Shown here in pieces: positions 25,200-36,097 of a stretch of 64,000 nt of DNA (position 1 is the first letter of the stretch; the number at the start of each line of letters is the position of its first letter). Below the pieces are notes generated by a model that saw only the letters and a list, made by a program, of their open reading frames with translations, ran no database searches and had not been told where the DNA came from. The DNA is from Rhizobiales bacterium Ga0077537 (lineage in GTDB: Bacteria > Pseudomonadota > Alphaproteobacteria > Rhizobiales > Hyphomicrobiaceae): the NCBI GenBank assembly GCA_001464955.1, contig LNEM01000008.1:62001-126000 (forward strand), given 5' to 3'. The position numbers and the translations under genes are program-made.

Positions 25200-25353
25200 A
25201 TGGTTTTCCCTCGTGGCGCGGGTGTGGCCCCCGCGCTCCTCGTTGCCCGCATATTAGGCGTCACTCGGGTTAATTAAACGCTTAAGGCCAAGCCGTTCTG
25301 AGACGATCGCAGGGCCAGATCGTGGCAATCGGGCGGTCATGCCGAGGCGGCTC

Positions 25354-27747
25354 TCAAGCGTCCGGGGCGACATAGCCGGCCGCAGCTGCGGGAGGCATCG
25401 TGACGTCGTCGCTTTCACGCTCGGAGGTTGCGGGGGCAGGGACCGGATGGTCCGTTCTGGTGGCGAGACCGGCAGTGACCAACAGCGAGGGCGGCAGGGT
25501 GGCCTCCGAGACGATGAGCTGGGCGCGGGGCTCCGAAGACGGGGCCGAGGGGACGCGCGGCGCAGGCACAAGTTCAGGCCGCAGCGGCACGATGGGCTGA
25601 TCAGCATCGAGCGGCAGAGCCGTTACGCGCTCGGGCGCCGGCCCGACCTCGACGAGGGCTTCAGCCTGGCGCGTCATGGCGGGGTGGAGGACGACATTCT
25701 CCCGGACGGCCGGAAGAGGCAGATCGGGTTCGGCCATGTCGAAGTCCGGCTCGCGGCGATCGGCCGCCGATGCCGCGCCCGTCACAATGCGGGGCATGAA
25801 CTGCGGCCGCGGCACAGGGCCACGACGGCTGCCGGCCACATCGAATTTTGGCGGCATCGGCTCAATCGGGCCCGACATCGCGTGAGCGGGGTCAGGGCCG
25901 GGACGAGCATCATTTGGCTCCGGTGCGGCCGGGGCCGGCGCAGGGTAGGGCAACGATGGCTCGGCCCCACGGAGGGCGTCTTCCACCGCGCGACGGCGGT
26001 GCTCGCCCTCGACGCGGCGGGCCGCGCCCATCACGGCGCCGAGAATGATGTCCGACCACGCGCCGTCGCGGAAGCGATAGATGCGAAACGCCTCGGCGTG
26101 GGCGAACTTGCTGCCCTGACGGCGCAACAGCTTCTGGATGGCGCCGGTCGTCAGGAACGGATTGTGGACGCGGGAGAAGATCTTTTCCCGCTCGAAGCTC
26201 GCGAACAGGTTCGAGAGGAGGTGCGCCTCCTGCACCAGCGCCTCGGCATCGCCGACGCCGTAGCCCTGGGCCTGACGGCCGTTGCGAGGATTGCCGCGGA
26301 ACGGCGCGTTGAGGGGAATGGCGGCGTAGTAGGCGCCGTGGAAATCGAAGACGACGTGACGGAACACCTCGAAGTTCTCGCGGATGTCCCGGTCGCGATG
26401 GATCTCGTTGAAGCGGGAGAGGATCTGGATGACCGGCCCGTGCTCCGCCGCCCGCATCTTCGGCACCAGCCGTTCGAGGGGGCTCGCGGGCTTCTTGATC
26501 GACACGAGCAGCAGGCAGAGATCGACGAAAATCGCGATCGCGAGGGGAATGTAGTCGCGCTTCGAGAGGCCAGCCTCGGCGGCCATGGCGTTCAGGCGAG
26601 CCTGCGTCTGCGGCGAGGCCTCGGCGGACTGGACGGCCTTCTTCTGCAGCTCGCGCAATTCCTCGGCGCTCGGCGGCATCTTCAGGGTCAGTGCGCCGAA
26701 GAGGCTCGCGGTCAGGCGCCGGAACGCCTCGATGACGGCCTCCGAGCCCTCGACGGCGGCGATGCGGGGCTTCTCCATCAGGGGCAGTTCGTCAATGGCC
26801 CGCACGACACCTTTCAGCGCCGTCGTCAACTGGGCGTCGGGGCAGAGGAACGTGCCGCCCCTTGTATCGGCGAACGAGACCTTGTCGGCGCGCTCGGCGA
26901 GGTCGGCACGGATCTGGCGAAGCTGTGGGTCGGAGCGGAACGTGTTGAAGCCGGTCACGGTCATGTCCAGGCGACGGTTGAGGCCGCGCATGAACTCGTT
27001 GCGGGTGCCGGTCGCCTTGTCGACCGTCGAGTCGTCCTTGGCGCCGACGCGCGCCAGATCACCGGTCAGCGAGGACAGCTCGGTGCGGATCGCGGCAATA
27101 CGGCCGCTGACGAATTCGCCAGCGAAGCGGAAGCGGCCGGCGTCGTCGTCACGCAACTGTCGGCGAGGGCCGTCACCGGGACGCGAATTGGGACAGGTGG
27201 TTCCGTTCTGGCGCTCCTGCGCCGCCTTCTGGGTCGAGAGCGCGGTCAGGGAGGTCAACGTCGACTGGAGCTGTTCGAGGCGCGTGACGCCGGCGTGGAG
27301 CGAGTTCTGGACCTGGCCGACAGCCGACTCGGCCGACCGCGACGCCTCACCGCGGCTCTCGAGAACCTTCCAGTAGAATCCGAAGCCGAATCCGACCGAA
27401 ATGCCGGTCAGCAGCAGATAGCCGGACACGTAAAGGAGCCGCGTGGTCCAGCCGATCTCGGAGAAGATCTGGTCGAGGAGCCACACGATCATGATCATCA
27501 GCATGGCGACCGAGAACATGATGATCAGCCGGTTGACGAACGAGAGTTCGCCGACGTTGGCCTCGATCAGCTCCAGCATGCCGACGAAAGTCGCAACCCA
27601 GGACAGCGCGCCGAGACCGATCACCAGCAGGAGCCGCTTCCAATCGCGCCGCGGACGCGGTGGCGCGCCGTCGGAGGGGGCGTCCCAATCGGCCCCTGCC
27701 AGCAGCCGGCTCCGCGATGCCTTCACTGCCTCGCCACGATCCGCCAT
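25354..27747 (-). CDS. Large unrecognised membrane protein (four membrane segments)
   Basis: I cannot place this 797-residue protein in a family. Three hydrophobic segments lie at about residues 38-61, 73-94 and 103-126. A region of ~270 residues with helical, coiled-coil-like character follows (130-395), then a fourth segment at ~398-417. The C-terminal half (418-797) begins with charged helical sequence and ends in a proline/alanine-rich, acidic tail of ~200 residues. The 130-395 region holds two cysteines (C185, C302) that could pair if it is periplasmic. It is transcribed in the same direction as soeABC but 192 bases downstream, so it may be independent. Confidence 0.75.
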   Translation of the reverse strand: MADRGEAVKASRSRLLAGADWDAPSDGAPPRPRRDWKRLLLVIGLGALSWVATFVGMLELIEANVGELSFVNRLIIMFSVAMLMIMIVWLLDQIFSEIGWTTRLLYVSGYLLLTGISVGFGFGFYWKVLESRGEASRSAESAVGQVQNSLHAGVTRLEQLQSTLTSLTALSTQKAAQERQNGTTCPNSRPGDGPRRQLRDDDAGRFRFAGEFVSGRIAAIRTELSSLTGDLARVGAKDDSTVDKATGTRNEFMRGLNRRLDMTVTGFNTFRSDPQLRQIRADLAERADKVSFADTRGGTFLCPDAQLTTALKGVVRAIDELPLMEKPRIAAVEGSEAVIEAFRRLTASLFGALTLKMPPSAEELRELQKKAVQSAEASPQTQARLNAMAAEAGLSKRDYIPLAIAIFVDLCLLLVSIKKPASPLERLVPKMRAAEHGPVIQILSRFNEIHRDRDIRENFEVFRHVVFDFHGAYYAAIPLNAPFRGNPRNGRQAQGYGVGDAEALVQEAHLLSNLFASFEREKIFSRVHNPFLTTGAIQKLLRRQGSKFAHAEAFRIYRFRDGAWSDIILGAVMGAARRVEGEHRRRAVEDALRGAEPSLPYPAPAPAAPEPNDARPGPDPAHAMSGPIEPMPPKFDVAGSRRGPVPRPQFMPRIVTGAASAADRREPDFDMAEPDLPLPAVRENVVLHPAMTRQAEALVEVGPAPERVTALPLDADQPIVPLRPELVPAPRVPSAPSSEPRAQLIVSEATLPPSLLVTAGLATRTDHPVPAPATSERESDDVTMPPAAAAGYVAPDA

Positions 27748-27939
27748 ACCCTGACGCCCCTCGATCGACCGCTCGCGGCAACGCTCCGCCGCATGGCGGC
27801 GCCGCCCCCGATCCGGGACGCACGCGCACAGATGAAAGCGTTAACCGGCGAGAGCGGCGTCAGTGCGGCCGGGAGATGTCGGGACGTTCAGGATCGCCGC
27901 GAGACGGCCACCCGCACGACACAAAGTGGGGAGGTGCGC

Positions 27940-28890
27940 TCAGGCGTTCTCGGCGCCGTAGAAGAGCGTCACCACGTGCTGGGCTTCCGCGAAGAAGAGC
28001 CAGCGTTCGACGATGACGCCGAGACCGACGCCGAGGGTCGCGATCGCCACGGCGAACAGTCCGGCGCCCGACGGCAACTGAGAGGCGAGAAGCAACAGAG
28101 CCGCCGGCGCGAGGAAACCCACGCCCGTCGCCAGCAGGCGGAGCGAATGTGCGTGCTTGCGCGCTACGACGTAGCCCATCTCGCGCATCACGAAGTTCGC
28201 TTGCGTGTGCGGCCCGTCGAGCGGACGCACCCGTCCGAAGCGGCCGAGGCCCGTGGCGCCGCCGGCCGTCCACGTGCGTGGCGCGCCGTCGATGCGGCTC
28301 CAGTAGAGCCACTTGACGGCGGCGGCCGCGAGCAGGAGGGCACCGGCGACGAGGAGCAACGGCCGCCATGGGGCCGACGAGAGCGCCATCACGAGAGCCA
28401 GGAGCACGCCGCCGCTTGCGATGGAAAGGACGACATAGACCGGTGCCACCAGCGGCTCCGACCAGGTGCGGATCGTCGGCAGCGACTGGTAGATCATGCC
28501 CGTGGTCCAGACGGTGGCCATGGCTCCGACGCCAGCGAGCAGCGCCAGCACCGCCGGCACGATCCACCAGACGCCGGACGCGAGAACCTGCACCAGAAGC
28601 AGCAGCCCGGAAGGGACGTAGGTGGCGACCGCCAGCACGCCCTCGCGCGAGAGCCACGACGTTTCCCACTGGCTCAATGCCCGCCAGGCGCGCTCCGGGC
28701 GGCCGAGGTGGAGCGTCGACGACAGGAGACCGACCGTGACGAGGCCCAGCGCCAGTACCAGCGCGACGATGGCCGGCGCACCCGTCGGCGCCAGAGCGCC
28801 GAGCCAGATCGCAACGGCCAGCCAGGCTAGCAGGCCGTAGCCGGCGCCCGAGGCCGTGGTGAAGAGAATGACGGAATAGGCGGGATGCAT
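27940..28890 (-). CDS. soeC: Membrane anchor subunit, DmsC family; SoeC of sulfite dehydrogenase
   Basis: A 316-residue protein with about eight to nine membrane segments. It matches the DmsC-type anchor that carries electrons between the iron-sulfur subunit and the quinone pool. The N-terminus MHPAYSVILFTTASGAGYGL and the LHLGRPERAWRA segment are typical. ATG 28890 is the first good start and fits the usual N-terminus. It is the third gene of the minus-strand soeA-soeB-soeC run. DmsC itself is an alternative name, but the sox genes next door favour SoeC. Confidence 0.8.
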   Translation of the reverse strand: MHPAYSVILFTTASGAGYGLLAWLAVAIWLGALAPTGAPAIVALVLALGLVTVGLLSSTLHLGRPERAWRALSQWETSWLSREGVLAVATYVPSGLLLLVQVLASGVWWIVPAVLALLAGVGAMATVWTTGMIYQSLPTIRTWSEPLVAPVYVVLSIASGGVLLALVMALSSAPWRPLLLVAGALLLAAAAVKWLYWSRIDGAPRTWTAGGATGLGRFGRVRPLDGPHTQANFVMREMGYVVARKHAHSLRLLATGVGFLAPAALLLLASQLPSGAGLFAVAIATLGVGLGVIVERWLFFAEAQHVVTLFYGAENA

Positions 28891-28954
28891 GCGGTGGGGT
28901 TCCAGTCGGGCCGTGACGTGTCGGGGTAGCGGGCGTGACGTGCGCTGGCGGAGG

Positions 28955-29701
28955 TCAGGTGGAGAGCACGCGGTCGACCCAGGCGAAAAGGCGCTCGGCC
29001 GCCGATCCGTCGGGCCGCGGCACGCTTTCGGCGACCGGGCCGACGGCCTTCGCCTCGAACGTGCGCGGACGCGGCGGCAGGTACTTGTTGGTCGGCTTGT
29101 AGTCCATCTCGGGGAGGAGATCGAAGCCACCGCGGTCGGCCACCAGCTTCGATACGGCGCTCTCCGCATCGGCGAGATCGCCGAAGTGGCGGGCGCCGGT
29201 CGGACAGGCGCGGACACAGGCGGGCTGGCGGTCTTCCGGCGCGAGCGTCTCGTTGTAGATCCGGTCGACGCAGAGCGTGCACTTCTTCATGACGCCGTGG
29301 GTGTAATCATACTCGCGCGCGCCGTAGGGGCAGGCCCACGAGCAGAGCTTGCAGCCGATGCACGTGTCCGGATTGACCAGCACGATGCCGTCCTCGGCGC
29401 GCTTGTAGCTGGCGCCGGTCGGGCAGACCGTGACGCAGGCCGGCGTTTCGCAGTGGAGGCACGAACGAGGGAAGTTGACCGTGCGGCTCTCGGCCCCCTC
29501 CCCCACCTCGTAGGAGTGGACGCGGTTGAGCCATGCGCCGTGCGGGTCGGCGCCGTAGGCGTCCTCGTCGGTGAGCGGGCCGGAATAGCCGCCCGCGTTC
29601 CATTCCTTGCAGCTCGTCGCGCACGCGTGACACCCGACGCAGGTGTCGAGGTCGATGACGAGGCCGAGCTTCTTCCTGGTCGTCGCGGGAAGGGCGGTCA
29701 T
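28955..29701 (-). CDS. soeB: Iron-sulfur subunit; SoeB of sulfite dehydrogenase
   Basis: A 248-residue ferredoxin-like electron-transfer subunit. Four cysteine clusters are visible: CVGCHACATSC, CLHCETPACVTVC, CIGCKLCSWACP and CTLC paired with the late CVRACP, enough for four [4Fe-4S] centres. It passes electrons from the molybdenum subunit to the membrane anchor. Its ATG overlaps the soeA stop codon in an ATGA arrangement, so translation is probably coupled. DmsB and related subunits share this layout. Confidence 0.85.
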   Translation of the reverse strand: MTALPATTRKKLGLVIDLDTCVGCHACATSCKEWNAGGYSGPLTDEDAYGADPHGAWLNRVHSYEVGEGAESRTVNFPRSCLHCETPACVTVCPTGASYKRAEDGIVLVNPDTCIGCKLCSWACPYGAREYDYTHGVMKKCTLCVDRIYNETLAPEDRQPACVRACPTGARHFGDLADAESAVSKLVADRGGFDLLPEMDYKPTNKYLPPRPRTFEAKAVGPVAESVPRPDGSAAERLFAWVDRVLST

Positions 29702-32559
29702 TTGCGCCTCCCGGCGACGGAACGTGGCATCGTGAGCGGCTCGAAGCGTGGACTGGTGCCGGGTGGCTCGGCGTCGGCCTTCTCGATGCGCACGCGGAGA
29801 TCGTACCAGGCGGCCTGGCCCGTCACCGGATCGCTGTTGGAGAAGCGGTAGCCGCCGTCGCGCTCCGGCAGGAGTTCGCCGATCAGGTGGTTCAAGAGGA
29901 AGCCCTTCTCCGCCTCCGGAGCATCCTTGTCGAGTGCCCAGGCGCCGGAGCGCTTGCCGATGGCGTTCCACGTCCAGACGGTCTCGGAGTTGACGCCGTC
30001 CATGAGTTTCACCTGCGCCTTGACGCGCCCCTGATGGCTGGTGATCCAGACCCAATCGTCGTCGGCGACGCCGATCTCGGCGCCCTTGGCGCGTGCCATG
30101 TAGAGGCGGTTCGCCGCCGTGATCTGGCGGAGCCACGCGTTCTGCGAGCCCCACGAGTGGTACATGTGCATCGGCCGCTGCGTGATGGCGTGCATGGGGA
30201 ACTTCGAGAGGTCGACGAGCTGACCCTCGAAGGGCTCGTACCAGAACGGGATCGGATCGAAGTAAGTGGCGATCCGCTCGCGATGGCTCGCCGGCGGCTG
30301 CACCGCGCCATGGCCGTCAGCCGCGAGACGGAAGCGCTGCAGCGGCTCGCAGTAGAGTTGCATGACCAGACGGTCGGTGCTCTCGAGAAAGCCGGACTTG
30401 TGGGCCCAGTCGACATAGCCCCGGTTCCAGAGCTTGAAGTAGCGCTGATCGTGCGGCAGCGGGTGGTGGTGGAACCCGCCATTGGCGATGTAGCGGTCGA
30501 GCTGGCCCTTGTTCGGCTCGCCCTTGGCGAAGCTTTCGCCATCCTTGCCGCGCCAGCCGGCGAGCGGGCCGACGCCGGGGCCGCGCTCGTGGTTGACGAT
30601 GTAGTCCGGGTAGCCTCCCGGATAGCGGCGCGAGCCGTCCGGATTGGTGAGGCCGGGGAGCGCGAGGCGCCAACCGAGGTCGAGCAGCACGTCCTGGAAG
30701 GGGCGCACGTCGCGGTCCGGCTCGACGACCGGGTGGCGAATGGCGTCGGCCGGACCGTCGGCATCGGAGATCGGCCGGTCGAGGAGCGAGATGCAGTCCC
30801 AGCGCTCGAGATAGGTCGTGTCCGGCAGGATGAGGTCGGCGTACGGCACCATCTCGGAGAAATAGGCGTCCGAATAGATGATGTGGGGAATGCGGTATTC
30901 GCCCGTCGCCTCGTCGATCGCCGTCAGGTGGTCCATCACCGCCGGCACGTTCATCGACGAGTTCCAGCTCATGTTGGCCATGTACATGAACAGGGTGTCG
31001 ATCGGGTACGGATCACCGTTGGCCGCATTGGTGATGACCATGTGCATCAGGCCGTGGGCCGCGATCGGCGCATCCCACGAATAGGCCTTGTCGATGCGCT
31101 GCGGCGTGCCGGCGTCGTCGATCAGCAGATCCTCGGGCGCCAGCGGGAAGCCGAGCTGCGGACCCGGCAACGGCGTATTCGGCTTCACTTCGCCGGGCTT
31201 GCCGCGCGGCTTGATACGCGGTGGATTGGACTTCGGATAGGGCGGCTTGATGCGGAAGGAACCGGGCGTCTCGATGGCGCCGAGCAGCATCTGCAGGACG
31301 TGCATCATGCGGCACGTCTGGAAGCCGTTGGCGTGGGCCGAGATGCCGCGCATCGCATGCATGGCGACCGGGCGGCCGACCATCTTCTCGTGACGCCGGC
31401 CGTGCCAGTCGGTCCAGGGCTGATCGATCACGACCGGATTGTCGAAGGCGGCGGCGGCGAGTTCGGTGGCGATGCGGCGGATCTGGGAGGCGGGCAAGCC
31501 GGTGCGCTTCGCCACCTCGTCGGGCGCGAACTCGGGCGCGAGGTAGCGCCGCGCGATCATCTCGAAGACGGGGCGGGCCTTGCGGCCGTCCGGCAGCTCG
31601 ACCTCGCCCTGCAGGACCGGCGACAGGTCGGGGCTGTCGATGCCGACGAGCACGCCGGTTCGGCGGTCCTTGACCAGAACCTCGCCGCCTTCGCCGCGCG
31701 CCAACAGGCCGTGATCGGCGCTGCCGGGGCTCTCGATGACGAGGGCCGGCGCGTTCGTGTAGCGCACCAGATAGTCGAGGTCGATGCGCTGGCTCGAGAG
31801 CAGCTCGTGGATCAGCGCGCCGACGAAGAGGCCGTCGGTGCCGGGCTTGATGCCGATCCATTCATCGGCGATTGCGCCATAGCCGGTGCGCACAGGATTG
31901 ACGACGACCACCTTGGCGCCGCGCGCCTTCATCTTGCCGAGCCCGATCTTGATCGGGTTCGATGCGTGATCCTCGGCGACGCCGAACATCAGGAAATAGC
32001 GGGCGTGGTCCCAGTCCGGCTCGCCGAACTCCCAGAACGAGCCGCCGAAGGTGTAGAGGCCGGCCGCCGCCATGTTGACCGAGCAAAAGCCGCCATGGGC
32101 CGCGAAGTTCGGCGTCCCGAACTGGATCGCCCACCAGCCGGTCAGCGATTGCGACTGATCGCGGCCGGTGAAGAAGGCGAGCTTCTTCGGGTCCGTGGCG
32201 CGGATGCGCGACAACCAGCCGGTGGCGATGCCCAGCGCTTCCTCCCAGCCGATCTCCTTGTATTCACCGGAGCCGCGCGGGCCGACGCGCAGCAACGGGG
32301 TCCGCAGCCGCGACGGCGCGTAATGCTGCATGATGCCGGCCGCACCCTTGCCGCAGATCACGCCCCGGTTGACCGGGTGGTCCCGGTTGCCCTCGATGTA
32401 GCGGACGCGACCGTCCTTCAGGTGAACCTTGATGCCGCAACGGCAGGCGCACATGTAGCAGGTCGTCGTCTTGACCTCGTCGCCAACGGGAACCGACAGC
32501 GGCACCTGGGGCTCGTCGAGTTGGCGGGGCTGGCCCGGGGCGGTGAGCTTCTGCTGCAC
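29698..32559 (-). CDS. soeA: Molybdopterin oxidoreductase subunit; SoeA of cytoplasmic sulfite dehydrogenase
   Basis: The 953-residue subunit belongs to the DMSO reductase family (bis-MGD molybdenum). An N-terminal [4Fe-4S] site is seen as C34-x2-C37-x3-C41 and C69. Later come WEEALGIA, NPVRTGYGAIADEW and a C-terminal MopB domain around HSWGSQNAWLRQI. There is no twin-arginine signal, so it should stay in the cytoplasm. SoeA is the cytoplasmic sulfite-oxidising member with this gene order, whereas DmsA and thiosulfate reductases are normally exported. Adjacent sox genes strengthen the sulfite call. Polysulfide or DMSO reductase activity cannot be excluded from sequence. Confidence 0.8.
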   Translation of the reverse strand: MQQKLTAPGQPRQLDEPQVPLSVPVGDEVKTTTCYMCACRCGIKVHLKDGRVRYIEGNRDHPVNRGVICGKGAAGIMQHYAPSRLRTPLLRVGPRGSGEYKEIGWEEALGIATGWLSRIRATDPKKLAFFTGRDQSQSLTGWWAIQFGTPNFAAHGGFCSVNMAAAGLYTFGGSFWEFGEPDWDHARYFLMFGVAEDHASNPIKIGLGKMKARGAKVVVVNPVRTGYGAIADEWIGIKPGTDGLFVGALIHELLSSQRIDLDYLVRYTNAPALVIESPGSADHGLLARGEGGEVLVKDRRTGVLVGIDSPDLSPVLQGEVELPDGRKARPVFEMIARRYLAPEFAPDEVAKRTGLPASQIRRIATELAAAAFDNPVVIDQPWTDWHGRRHEKMVGRPVAMHAMRGISAHANGFQTCRMMHVLQMLLGAIETPGSFRIKPPYPKSNPPRIKPRGKPGEVKPNTPLPGPQLGFPLAPEDLLIDDAGTPQRIDKAYSWDAPIAAHGLMHMVITNAANGDPYPIDTLFMYMANMSWNSSMNVPAVMDHLTAIDEATGEYRIPHIIYSDAYFSEMVPYADLILPDTTYLERWDCISLLDRPISDADGPADAIRHPVVEPDRDVRPFQDVLLDLGWRLALPGLTNPDGSRRYPGGYPDYIVNHERGPGVGPLAGWRGKDGESFAKGEPNKGQLDRYIANGGFHHHPLPHDQRYFKLWNRGYVDWAHKSGFLESTDRLVMQLYCEPLQRFRLAADGHGAVQPPASHRERIATYFDPIPFWYEPFEGQLVDLSKFPMHAITQRPMHMYHSWGSQNAWLRQITAANRLYMARAKGAEIGVADDDWVWITSHQGRVKAQVKLMDGVNSETVWTWNAIGKRSGAWALDKDAPEAEKGFLLNHLIGELLPERDGGYRFSNSDPVTGQAAWYDLRVRIEKADAEPPGTSPRFEPLTMPRSVAGRRK

Positions 32560-32736: not shown

Positions 32737-33597
32737 ATGCGGTATCGCCGGCACGCCCTGTCACTATCGGTCAGGCGCCTCGCCGGGGTGGCGATCACGG
32801 TCGCCTGGCTCGCGTGGGGGACCATGGGAGCGCTCGCCGCCGGGCCGGACGAGATCGACCGGGGCCTCGAGCAGTTCCGGCAGATGATGACGGCCGACCC
32901 TTGGGCCAATCCCGCGCTCCTCGACGCGGACCGGGGGGCGGCGCTCTGGCGGCGGAGGGCGGGTCCGCGCAACGTTTCGCTCGAGCGGTGCGACCTCGGG
33001 AAGGGTCCCGGCGTGGTCGACGGCGCCTTCGCGGCGTTGCCGCGCTATTTCCGCGACGCCGGCCGGGTCATGGACACGGAGACGCGGCTCATCTGGTGCA
33101 TGGAGCACCTGCAGGGCATCCCCGCGGCACAACTCACGGAGACGCCGCATCCGGCATCGGGGCAGCCCGTGCGCGACCTCGGCGCGATTACCACTTGGAT
33201 CGCCTCGCGATCGGACGGCAAGTCGTTCGGCGCACCGTTCCGCCACCCGCGGGAAAAGGCGACGCTGGCGCTCGGGCGGGAGTTGTTCTTCCGGCGCTCG
33301 GGGCCGTTCGATTTCTCCTGCGCCACCTGCCACGGGACCGAGAACAAGCGTATCCGGCGGCAAGGGCTCGCCATGCTGATCGATCCGGCCGAAGCTCGGA
33401 AGGTGGTCGGCGAGTGGCCCGCCTACCGGGTCTCTTCGACACATGTCATGACGCTCCAGCACCGGCTGTACGACTGCTTCTGGCAAATGCGCATGCCGGA
33501 ACTCAAACTCGGCTCGGAGCTGGCGGTGGCGTTGACCGCCTACCTCGTGAAGCAGGCCGAAGGCGGTGTCATTGCGGCCCCCGGGATCAAACGATGA
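32737..33597 (+). CDS. soxA: SoxA, c-type cytochrome of the SoxAX thiosulfate enzyme
   Basis: The 286-residue periplasmic protein, together with SoxX, joins thiosulfate to the carrier SoxYZ. A signal peptide ends near residue 35 (GALAA). There is one c-heme site, C195-x2-C198-H199 (CATCH), and the C247 of LYDCFWQMRMPE is the expected active-site cysteine that also ligates heme. C85 and C121 lie where a structural disulfide replaces the first heme of diheme SoxA. It is therefore a monoheme form. It starts the soxA-soxX-soxB run, and ATG 32737 has GAG five bases upstream. Confidence 0.9.
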   Translation: MRYRRHALSLSVRRLAGVAITVAWLAWGTMGALAAGPDEIDRGLEQFRQMMTADPWANPALLDADRGAALWRRRAGPRNVSLERCDLGKGPGVVDGAFAALPRYFRDAGRVMDTETRLIWCMEHLQGIPAAQLTETPHPASGQPVRDLGAITTWIASRSDGKSFGAPFRHPREKATLALGRELFFRRSGPFDFSCATCHGTENKRIRRQGLAMLIDPAEARKVVGEWPAYRVSSTHVMTLQHRLYDCFWQMRMPELKLGSELAVALTAYLVKQAEGGVIAAPGIKR

Positions 33598-33607
33598 AAG
33601 CATCGCC

Positions 33608-34339
33608 ATGAGGCCGCTCATCGCCATCGGCTTCCTGCTCGCAATCGGTGTGCTGCTGGTCGCGCCCGCGCCAATGGTCATGGCGGACAGCGGTCGGTCG
33701 GCCGGGCCCGTGATCGGCGAGCGGCAGGTCCGCCGCGTGCTGCGGAGCGGCTTTCCGGCGCTGCCGGCCGGCTGGGAAACGCGGCTCGTCCCCGACGAGA
33801 CGATGGCGACCTGTGCGGACATCCGGGGCGAGGTTCCGAAAGAGATCGGCGAGCGGATCAAGGCGCGGGAGCGGGCACGGATCGTCTATCCGCAGGACGG
33901 ACAGTTCCTCGGCGACTGGAGGCGGGGAGAGGCGATCGCCCAGTCGGGCTACGGAATGCGCTTCACCGATACGACCGCTCAGCGCCCGAACGGCGGCAAC
34001 TGCTATGCCTGCCATCAGCTTTCGCCCGACGAGGTCAGCTACGGGACGATCGGGGCCAGTCTCAAGGGGTTCGGGCGGATTCACAAATTCCGGCCCGAGG
34101 ACGCCCGGATCGCCTACGAGAAGATCTACAACAGCCAAGCCATCGTGGCGTGCTCGATGATGCCGAGGTTCGGCGCCAACGGGATCCTGAGCATCGAGCA
34201 GATCAAGGATCTCGTGGCACTGCTGATGGACCCGGCAAGCCCCGTCAATCGGGAGGAGCCTGCAGGCGGCAGTGCATCGAGCGCCCAGCCGGAGCCAACC
34301 CAGCCTGCGCCGCTCCCCCAGGGCAAGGCGCGTCCGTGA
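33608..34339 (+). CDS. soxX: SoxX, c-type cytochrome partner of SoxA
   Basis: A 243-residue periplasmic monoheme cytochrome. A signal peptide covers residues ~1-26 (cleavage after VMA). The heme site is C132-YA-C135-H136 (NCYACH), and the distal methionine is in CSMMPRFG (M184 or M185). SoxX receives electrons from SoxA during thiosulfate-SoxY coupling. It is longer than many SoxX proteins because of an N-terminal region (30-125) and a proline-rich tail. It starts 10 bases after soxA. ATG 33608 is the start; GTG 33566 would overlap soxA and is unlikely. Confidence 0.88.
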   Translation: MRPLIAIGFLLAIGVLLVAPAPMVMADSGRSAGPVIGERQVRRVLRSGFPALPAGWETRLVPDETMATCADIRGEVPKEIGERIKARERARIVYPQDGQFLGDWRRGEAIAQSGYGMRFTDTTAQRPNGGNCYACHQLSPDEVSYGTIGASLKGFGRIHKFRPEDARIAYEKIYNSQAIVACSMMPRFGANGILSIEQIKDLVALLMDPASPVNREEPAGGSASSAQPEPTQPAPLPQGKARP

Positions 34340-34387
34340 GTCGGCTCCGGCCGTAATCCCGCCGCATCGATAGTGAAACGGAGACCG

Positions 34388-36097
34388 ATGCTCACCCGCC
34401 GCGACTTCACGACCGTCGCCGCCGCCACCGCCGCCGTCTCGGGGCTCGGTGCAGCGTTCGGACGCGTCGCTGCGCAGGGGCGCATCGGGCTCGAGCATCT
34501 GCTTCGCTTCGAGGCCAAGGGCCAGCTCACCCTGCTGCACATGACCGACTGTCATGCGCAGCTCCGTCCCCTCTACTTTCGCGAACCCTCGATCAACATC
34601 GGGGTCGGGGAAATGGACGGCCAGCCGCCCCACCTCACCGGTTCGGAGATGCTCGATGCGTATGGCATCGCGCCGGGCACACCGGAGGCCTATGCACTCT
34701 CGTCGCACGACTTCGAGGCCCTCGCCCGGCGCTATGGGCGGGTCGGCGGCATGGACCGCATGGCGACGCTCGTCCGCGCCATTCGGGCCGAGCGCGGCGA
34801 CGGGCGCTGCCTGTTCCTCGATGGGGGCGATGCGCTGCAGGGCTCCTTCACGGCGCTTCAATCCGCCGGCGGTGACATGGTCCGCGTGCTCGACGGGCTC
34901 GGTGTCGCCGCGACGACGGGGCACTGGGAGTTCACGCTCGGACAGGCCCGCCTGCAGGAGATCTACGGCAACCGGTACGGGGCCGGCGCCGCCCCGTTCG
35001 ACTTTCTCGCGACCAACGTTCGCGATACCGAATTCGAGGAGCCAGTCTTCCGGGGATGGAAGATCTACGAGCGGGGCGGCCTCGCAGTCGGTGTCATCGG
35101 GCAGGCATTCCCCTACACCGCGGTCGCCAATCCGCGCTGGATGGTGCCGAAATGGTGGTTCGGCATCCGCGAGGCGCACATGGCGCGCACCGTCGCCGAG
35201 GTGCGGCGCGCCGGCGCGGACATCGTGGTTCTCCTGTCGCACAACGGCTTTGCGGTCGATCGCAAGCTCGCCGGTCGCGTTCCCGGGATCGACGTCATCC
35301 TGTCGGGCCACACCCACGATGCGCTCCCACGGCCGGCGCGGGTCGGGCGGACACTGATCATCGCCTCAGGATCGCACGGCAAATTCCTGTCGCGGCTCGA
35401 TGTGGAGATGCGGCGCGGCGAGATCGTGGACTGGACCTATGCGCTCATCCCGGTGCTGGCTGCCGCCATTCCGCCGGACCCCGAGATGGCGCGGCTCATC
35501 GCCGAGATCCGCGCGCCCCATGCCGACATGCTGGCGACGGAACTCGCCCGGACCGAGACGGCACTCTGGCGGCGCGGCAACCTCGGCGGCACGCTCGACG
35601 ATCTCATCTGCGACGCGCTGCTGGCCGAGCGCGACGCGGAGATCGCGCTGTCGCCCGGGTTTCGCTGGGGCGGCTCGCTGATCGCCGGCGATCCGATCAC
35701 GTGGGACGACATCTACAATGCCACGGCGATCACCTATCCCGCAGCCTACAGGACGCCGATACGGGGCGCCTTCATCAAGACCATCCTCGAGGACGTGGCC
35801 GACAACCTGTTCAACCCAGATCCCTACTATCAACAGGGCGGCGACATGGTGCGGGTCGGTGGCATGAGCTTCGTCGTCCGGCCGGATGCACCGGTGGGGG
35901 AACGCATCTCCGAGATGACACTGGCGCGAACCGGCGAGCCCATCGACGCGACGCGCACCTACGTCGTCGCCGGCTGGGGCTCGGTCAACGAGGGCGTTTC
36001 GGGCCCGCCGGTCTGGGACGTCGTGGCGCGGCACCTCAAGGCCCGCAAGGTGGTCAACGGCCTCGCACGCCGAACGGTCATGCTGAAGCGTGGCTGA
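34388..36097 (+). CDS. soxB: SoxB, thiosulfohydrolase
   Basis: The 569-residue enzyme hydrolyses sulfate from the SoxYZ-bound S-sulfonate in the periplasm, using two manganese ions. A twin-arginine signal lies at the N-terminus (TRRDF then a hydrophobic run to AAQG). Metal ligands are seen in MTDCHAQ, LDGGDALQG, TGHWEF, SHNGFAVD and SGHTHD, and the SoxB-specific QQGGDMVRVGG is present. ATG 34388 with CGGAG upstream is preferred; GTG 34373 adds five residues. It follows soxX and is convergent with the metallophosphoesterase gene. No soxYZ or soxCD follows. Confidence 0.92.
   Translation: MLTRRDFTTVAAATAAVSGLGAAFGRVAAQGRIGLEHLLRFEAKGQLTLLHMTDCHAQLRPLYFREPSINIGVGEMDGQPPHLTGSEMLDAYGIAPGTPEAYALSSHDFEALARRYGRVGGMDRMATLVRAIRAERGDGRCLFLDGGDALQGSFTALQSAGGDMVRVLDGLGVAATTGHWEFTLGQARLQEIYGNRYGAGAAPFDFLATNVRDTEFEEPVFRGWKIYERGGLAVGVIGQAFPYTAVANPRWMVPKWWFGIREAHMARTVAEVRRAGADIVVLLSHNGFAVDRKLAGRVPGIDVILSGHTHDALPRPARVGRTLIIASGSHGKFLSRLDVEMRRGEIVDWTYALIPVLAAAIPPDPEMARLIAEIRAPHADMLATELARTETALWRRGNLGGTLDDLICDALLAERDAEIALSPGFRWGGSLIAGDPITWDDIYNATAITYPAAYRTPIRGAFIKTILEDVADNLFNPDPYYQQGGDMVRVGGMSFVVRPDAPVGERISEMTLARTGEPIDATRTYVVAGWGSVNEGVSGPPVWDVVARHLKARKVVNGLARRTVMLKRG

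Follow-up and report, generated by a model that had tools for sequence, protein, structure and literature searches.

An undescribed, conserved membrane protein family encoded in a cell-wall gene cassette alongside a putative divergent class A penicillin-binding protein

Results

The C0 gene and its product

The window, by which we mean the whole 64,000-nucleotide stretch of DNA analysed here, encodes on its minus strand a 797-residue membrane protein (25354..27747; ATG at 27747, stop at 25354), which we labelled C0. Directly downstream, after a 154 bp gap and on the same strand, lies the gene for a soluble partner of 222 residues, C1 (24531..25199), which carries the motif HEQ...W.GDCMRRDP; a third label, C2, denotes a predicted divergent class A penicillin-binding protein (PBP) described below. 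Upstream are soeC, soeB and soeA-type genes (27940..32559, minus strand), and soeC itself spans 28890-27940, minus strand; the sequence-only reading, from which the name soe was taken, thus correctly placed C0 after soeC in the same orientation. These genes are ordinary of their kind, encoding molybdopterin, Fe-S and DmsC-type proteins.

The coordinates and length previously given for C0 were also correct, and its minus-strand frame is supported by both a codon-usage gene caller and homologues. Across it, in a G+C-rich region, runs a long antisense open frame on the plus strand (25339-28830, 1163 residues), which could be taken for the true gene, with C0 as an artefact. However, the gene caller selects the C0 frame over the plus-strand one, and the minus-strand protein has relatives at 50-70% identity, with a conserved core, in dozens of genomes; the artefact explanation is thereby refuted and retains practically no probability, and the C0 reading frame is real. 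A promoter search around C0 returned no promoter-like site, and the one terminator-like site found there lies inside C1, with no excess over shuffled sequences.

Hydropathy bore out the proposed layout of four membrane segments, a cysteine-holding loop and a Pro/Ala-rich acidic tail. In 19-residue windows, the peaks fall at residues 37-61, 65-100, about 104-122 and 397-422, the third being weak (a single window above 1.5), and a 273-residue loop (125-397) separates the third and fourth segments. From hydropathy and the positive-inside rule, we predict an N-in topology with a cytoplasmic N-terminus of 37 residues, TM1-TM3 at about 38-124, a periplasmic helical domain at 125-397, TM4 at about 398-417, a cytoplasmic domain at 418-590 and a disordered tail at 591-797. 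Cysteines at positions 185 and 302 in the loop and 411 inside the fourth segment are invariant in 50/50 aligned C0 homologues. The Cys185 codon (27193..27195, minus strand) belongs to the motif GTTCPNSRPGDGP and the Cys302 codon (26842..26844, minus strand) to FLCPDAQL; these two residues probably form a disulfide that would hold the periplasmic domain.

The structure model of C0 is poor (mean pLDDT 55), with a better helical loop at about 135-325 (pLDDT mostly 70-88 by block), and shows a single long helix from TM3 into the loop. A Foldseek search with this poor model returned mostly long-helix proteins at E 0.11 or worse, which is uninformative and silent on whether the fold is new.

The tail (25354..25977 including the stop, minus strand) contains 20% Pro and 17% Ala and has a net charge of -10. 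Most relatives share 50-70% identity over the core of the protein (about residues 20-600), and the tail varies, including in length. Tails of many relatives carry the short conserved motifs RETA.F and FGPY, and many also have an end motif after acidic residues (e.g. ISRRFRP, IAKRLRP or IRRIAPPAAE), which is retained in same-genus copies (ALRFGPATRE in L054 and L055, AMRLAPEKRE in L005). In a nucleotide alignment, the window's copy has lost this conserved C-terminal motif, with a two-codon gap and substitutions (25354-25420, minus strand). This pattern points to a binding partner of the tail and to decay of that interaction in the window's strain.

C0 represents a conserved family with a paralogue

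C0 had been assigned to no recognised family, and this holds in searches of Pfam, NCBIfam and PDB sequences. Its best Pfam match, DUF2157 (PF09925), scored 12.4 bits against a gathering cut-off of 32.4 (E 0.13), and the best NCBIfam match, NapH/MauN (TIGR02163), 9.8 bits against 213.05, so that C0 belongs to neither family; no PDB sequence matched below E 0.1, the best being at E 0.14 or worse.

Some C0 match is present in 90/99 genomes of the window's family, which split into 80 with C0 (E 3.3e-31 or better), 10 with paralogue-level matches only and 9 with none. Across the order, 35/199 genomes matched C0, 34 of them strongly, and in a class-wide draw of 385 genomes the C0 profile matched the window's own genome only. 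The titles of named relatives are Hyphomicrobiaceae, Hyphomicrobium, Filomicrobium, one 'Proteobacteria bacterium' and three 'Devosia equisanguinis'; the C0 genes of the last three (L039, L040 and L043) are nevertheless Hyphomicrobiaceae-like, and these titles may be wrong.

Most family genomes also contain a paralogue frame of about 600-660 residues with roughly 23-37% identity to C0. Members of this family (e.g. L050:8058-9908 and L073:7479-9278) share with C0 three segments, a helical two-cysteine loop, a fourth segment and a cytoplasmic part. Comparison of the two profiles with hhalign gave a probability of 99.1% and E 1.3e-18 over 346 columns, the match stopping after the fourth segment, and both loop cysteines are kept in 12/12 paralogues as in the 50/50 C0 homologues, which places C0 and the paralogue in one superfamily. 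Unlike C0, the paralogue lacks the long tail and is linked to neither C1 nor C2 outside a single genus, g57. It matches no Pfam family, has no common neighbours among the loci read, and no copy was detected in the window's genome. In genus g57 (G130, G171, G205, G262 and G284; L044-L048), the paralogue is encoded on the opposite strand, about 1.4-1.5 kb past C1; no other linkage between the two families was found. In a wider, class-level draw, 1/372 genomes matched the paralogue; the match lay inside an ABC-transporter frame and was dropped.

The usual context of C0 is a cell-wall gene cassette

From 33 neighbourhood records we obtained 29 C0 neighbourhoods; three records (L044, L047 and L048; 43% G+C) had no usable gene calls and L050 concerns the paralogue. 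C1 follows C0 in 21/29 neighbourhoods, and the eight others comprise four contig ends (L034, L038, L041 and L043) and four loci of family f30 (L059-L062). C2, a gene for about 820 residues, lies directly upstream of C0 in 16/29 neighbourhoods and at some distance in two more. An alpha-2-macroglobulin gene follows C1 in 10/29 and a PBP1C-type gene does so in seven; for the copies in the window's genome, the identity of both was verified with Pfam and NCBIfam. Even in the most distant relative found (L074, 33% identity), the order C2-C0-C1 is kept with one gene inserted.

Two further features accompany these loci. In L074, the gene that separates C2 from C0 (L074:4260-5354) encodes 364 residues without a Pfam match. 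A moeA-like gene, recognised by eye, and a HerA-like ATPase gene often lie further upstream of the cassette; in several relatives (L053:13083-17643, L051:210-3605), the HerA-like protein, a double-P-loop ATPase, has about 1120 residues and is accompanied by a protein of about 380 residues, both encoded upstream of C2-C0-C1.

The usual context of C0 is accordingly a cell-wall gene cassette, which is broken up in the window's genus. In the window's genome, C0 is on contig C8, C2 on C23 and the macroglobulin/PBP1C pair on C3; because these are separate contigs, no operon joins them there.

The adjoining sulfur genes are chance neighbours

Since C0 follows soeC on the same strand after 192 bp, and adjoins the soe genes in two same-genus genomes too, it could be an accessory of the SoeABC sulfite dehydrogenase, a link at which the sequence-only reading had hinted in proposing a co-occurrence check. 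That check revealed no association: among the 99 family genomes, C0 and soeA occur together in 31, C0 alone in 49, soeA alone in 8 and neither in 11 (odds ratio 0.87, p 0.80). Among the neighbourhoods read, C0-soe adjacency occurs only in the window's own genus (the window, L054 and L055), where soeABC occupies the place that C2 has in other genera, and in those other genera C0 sits in the cell-wall cassette. The accessory reading is therefore close to refuted and very improbable; soeABC is a chance upstream neighbour of C0 that stands outside its system.

In the window, soxA, soxX and soxB (32737-36097, plus strand) lie divergently beside the soe genes and pass the NCBIfam equivalog cut-offs. 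In the window, a sulfur-oxidation island thus adjoins what remains of the cell-wall cassette.

C2 is a putative divergent class A PBP

C2 contains a GT51 transglycosylase domain by Pfam (Transgly, PF00912; 53.0 and 53.3 bits, cut-off 27). The glycosyltransferase motifs EDR, GGST..Q and RK..E are kept wherever the sequence reaches (18/18, 19/19 and 20/20), and the transpeptidase motifs SxxK and KTG are present in 21/21 aligned sequences; SxN is found in 17/21, with S-x-S in the other four, the window's genome included. We take SxxK, SxN and KTG, together with the glycosyltransferase motifs, to be the catalytic motifs of class A PBPs. C2 has no Pfam Transpeptidase match at E 0.1, lies far below the NCBIfam PBP cut-offs (36.7 versus 494 bits for PBP1C) and matches no PDB sequence at E 0.001. 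Judged by its motifs, C2 is a divergent class A PBP.

C1 may be a phospholipase D-like pseudoenzyme

The C1 family, of about 200 residues, is soluble-looking and conserves the HEQ...W.GDCMRRDP motif in an alignment of 41 homologues. The C1 model has a mean pLDDT of 65, with much of the core at 80-89. In VIA-align, the phospholipase D (PLD) superfamily dominates the list, with Z 11.0 to Nuc (1byr; 133 residues, rmsd 3.4), so that the C1 model resembles the superfamily (Nuc, TrmB, Zucchini, FAM83) in predicted fold. Foldseek with the same model gave a best E of 0.025 and nothing at or below 0.001. A profile-profile comparison with PLD domains lent the fold no support, giving a probability of 1.7%, against 0.1-0.4% for control alignments of C0, C2 and the paralogue; this is a test that is weak in both directions, with a small PLD alignment, built from 20 PF13091 segments from relatives of which only those bearing HxK/HxR were kept and some were extracted from the wrong strand.

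The catalytic motif of the PLD superfamily is HxK(x)4D...GS. In C1, by contrast, the HxK lysine is absent (Gln in 35/41), no Asp is conserved at the D position, and GD replaces GS across the 41 homologues, so that the catalytic motif is not present. Because the catalytic lysine is missing and GS has become GD, C1 would be a pseudoenzyme if the predicted fold is right.

Co-occurrence ties C0 to C1 and C2

Among the 199 order genomes, C0 is found in 34, C2 in 29 and C1 in 39. C0 and C2 occur together in 29 genomes and C0 without C2 in five, and C2 is absent from all 165 genomes lacking C0; the 14 families of the draw in which C2 is found all contain C0 as well. C0 and C1 are both present in 33, C0 alone in one (G261, a partial C0 match) and C1 alone in six. 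The Fisher p of about 1e-30 for this co-occurrence is overstated, as the genomes come from one order and are related, not phylogenetically independent. In 25/33 genomes, C0 and C1 share a strand and are within 4 kb of each other; in six they are on different contigs and in two far apart. For C0 and C2, with a limit of 10 kb, the figures are 21/29 on the same strand, seven on different contigs and one far apart. C0 is genetically associated with C2. The six genomes with C1 but neither C0 nor C2 (G128, G169, G170, G204, G234 and G283) belong to two families, so a separate function for C1 is possible.

The five C0 genomes without C2 all belong to family f30 and keep C0 and C1 apart, and C1 occurs without C2 in 11 genomes. 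Such cases also fit a role for C0 as a transmembrane envelope or redox sensor, in which sensing would fall to the periplasmic disulfide domain and signalling, via C1, to the cytoplasmic domain; the synthase, macroglobulin and PBP1C would then not be direct partners of C0 but its downstream targets, or else its neighbours in a cassette for envelope stress. The long helix running from TM3 into the helical periplasmic domain, the invariant cysteine pair, the nearby alpha-2-macroglobulin and PBP1C genes and a weak C0 profile match to a HAMP-containing construct (E 0.14) are in keeping with a sensor, but kinase, cyclase, HAMP and methyl-accepting domains are all unmatched in C0 in Pfam, even at E 5. 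We regard this role as rather unlikely.

We are equally doubtful of a third possibility, that C0 is a structural scaffold or polar membrane organiser with the paralogue as its sister, and that its linkage to wall genes reflects a common cell location and no direct regulation of C2. The paralogue family of the same layout without common neighbours in the loci read, the retention of C0 without C2 in family f30, and the flexible tail of variable length would suit a scaffold; that C2 never occurs without C0 in 199 genomes argues against it.

Discussion

C0 is a real, conserved and undescribed family with a new cell-wall context, and it is probably part of cell-wall synthesis, not of the adjoining sulfite-oxidation genes. 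As for the mechanism, the reading we prefer, with less than even confidence, makes C0 an adaptor or regulator in the inner membrane that serves a dedicated class A PBP, C2, and acts with the small cytoplasmic C1. The helical periplasmic domain of C0 would contact or gate the C2 synthase or its substrate. On the other side of the membrane, C0 would use its cytoplasmic domain and flexible tail to recruit C1 and positioning factors, and wall synthesis might thereby be tied to a cytoplasmic signal or to cell geometry. We infer both the physical contacts and the direction of regulation. The split cassette in the window's genome, the C2-less genomes of family f30, the occurrence of C1 without C0 in six genomes and the poor C0 model count against this regulator of C2.

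A broader proposal, which we consider unlikely as a whole, is a new kind of dedicated peptidoglycan synthase complex in Hyphomicrobium-type and related bacteria, where C0 and C1, the latter a cytoplasmic pseudoenzyme with a PLD-like fold, would control C2 across the inner membrane. Alpha-2-macroglobulin and PBP1C would form the repair arm of this complex, which may take part in zonal growth (budding, hypha formation).

In alphaproteobacteria that bud or grow from a pole, class A PBPs need cues that set the place and time of their action. The three-gene module of synthase, membrane protein and soluble partner, both conserved and undescribed, is a concrete, testable candidate for a controller. 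The cassette also gives context to the C0, paralogue and C1 families, all of which are without a Pfam or NCBIfam model. A literature search at the level of abstracts returned nothing on the C0 protein, which may still be in print, and named no inner-membrane controller of this kind for class A PBPs.

Known class A PBP activators such as LpoA, LpoB and CpoB are outer-membrane lipoproteins or periplasmic proteins. C0 would resemble them in its proposed role as partner of a bifunctional peptidoglycan synthase. Unlike them, it is a predicted inner-membrane protein with a large cytoplasmic part and no N-terminal lipobox cysteine; its first cysteine is residue 185 and its first hydrophobic segment begins at about 37, and C0 is accordingly not an Lpo-type lipoprotein. 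In Rhizobiales, polar growth is PBP1a-dependent and this class A PBP is the key wall synthase, according to the parts of PMC8546619 covered here, which name PBP1a, PBP1b and PBP1c homologues and no C0-like partner. C2 differs in scoring far below the NCBIfam PBP cut-offs (36.7 bits against 494 for PBP1C). As far as those parts of the source extend, the Rhizobiales PBP1a system (PMC8546619) and the C0-C2 pair belong to the same broad bacterial group, and a class A PBP, in C2's case a putative one, is central to both.
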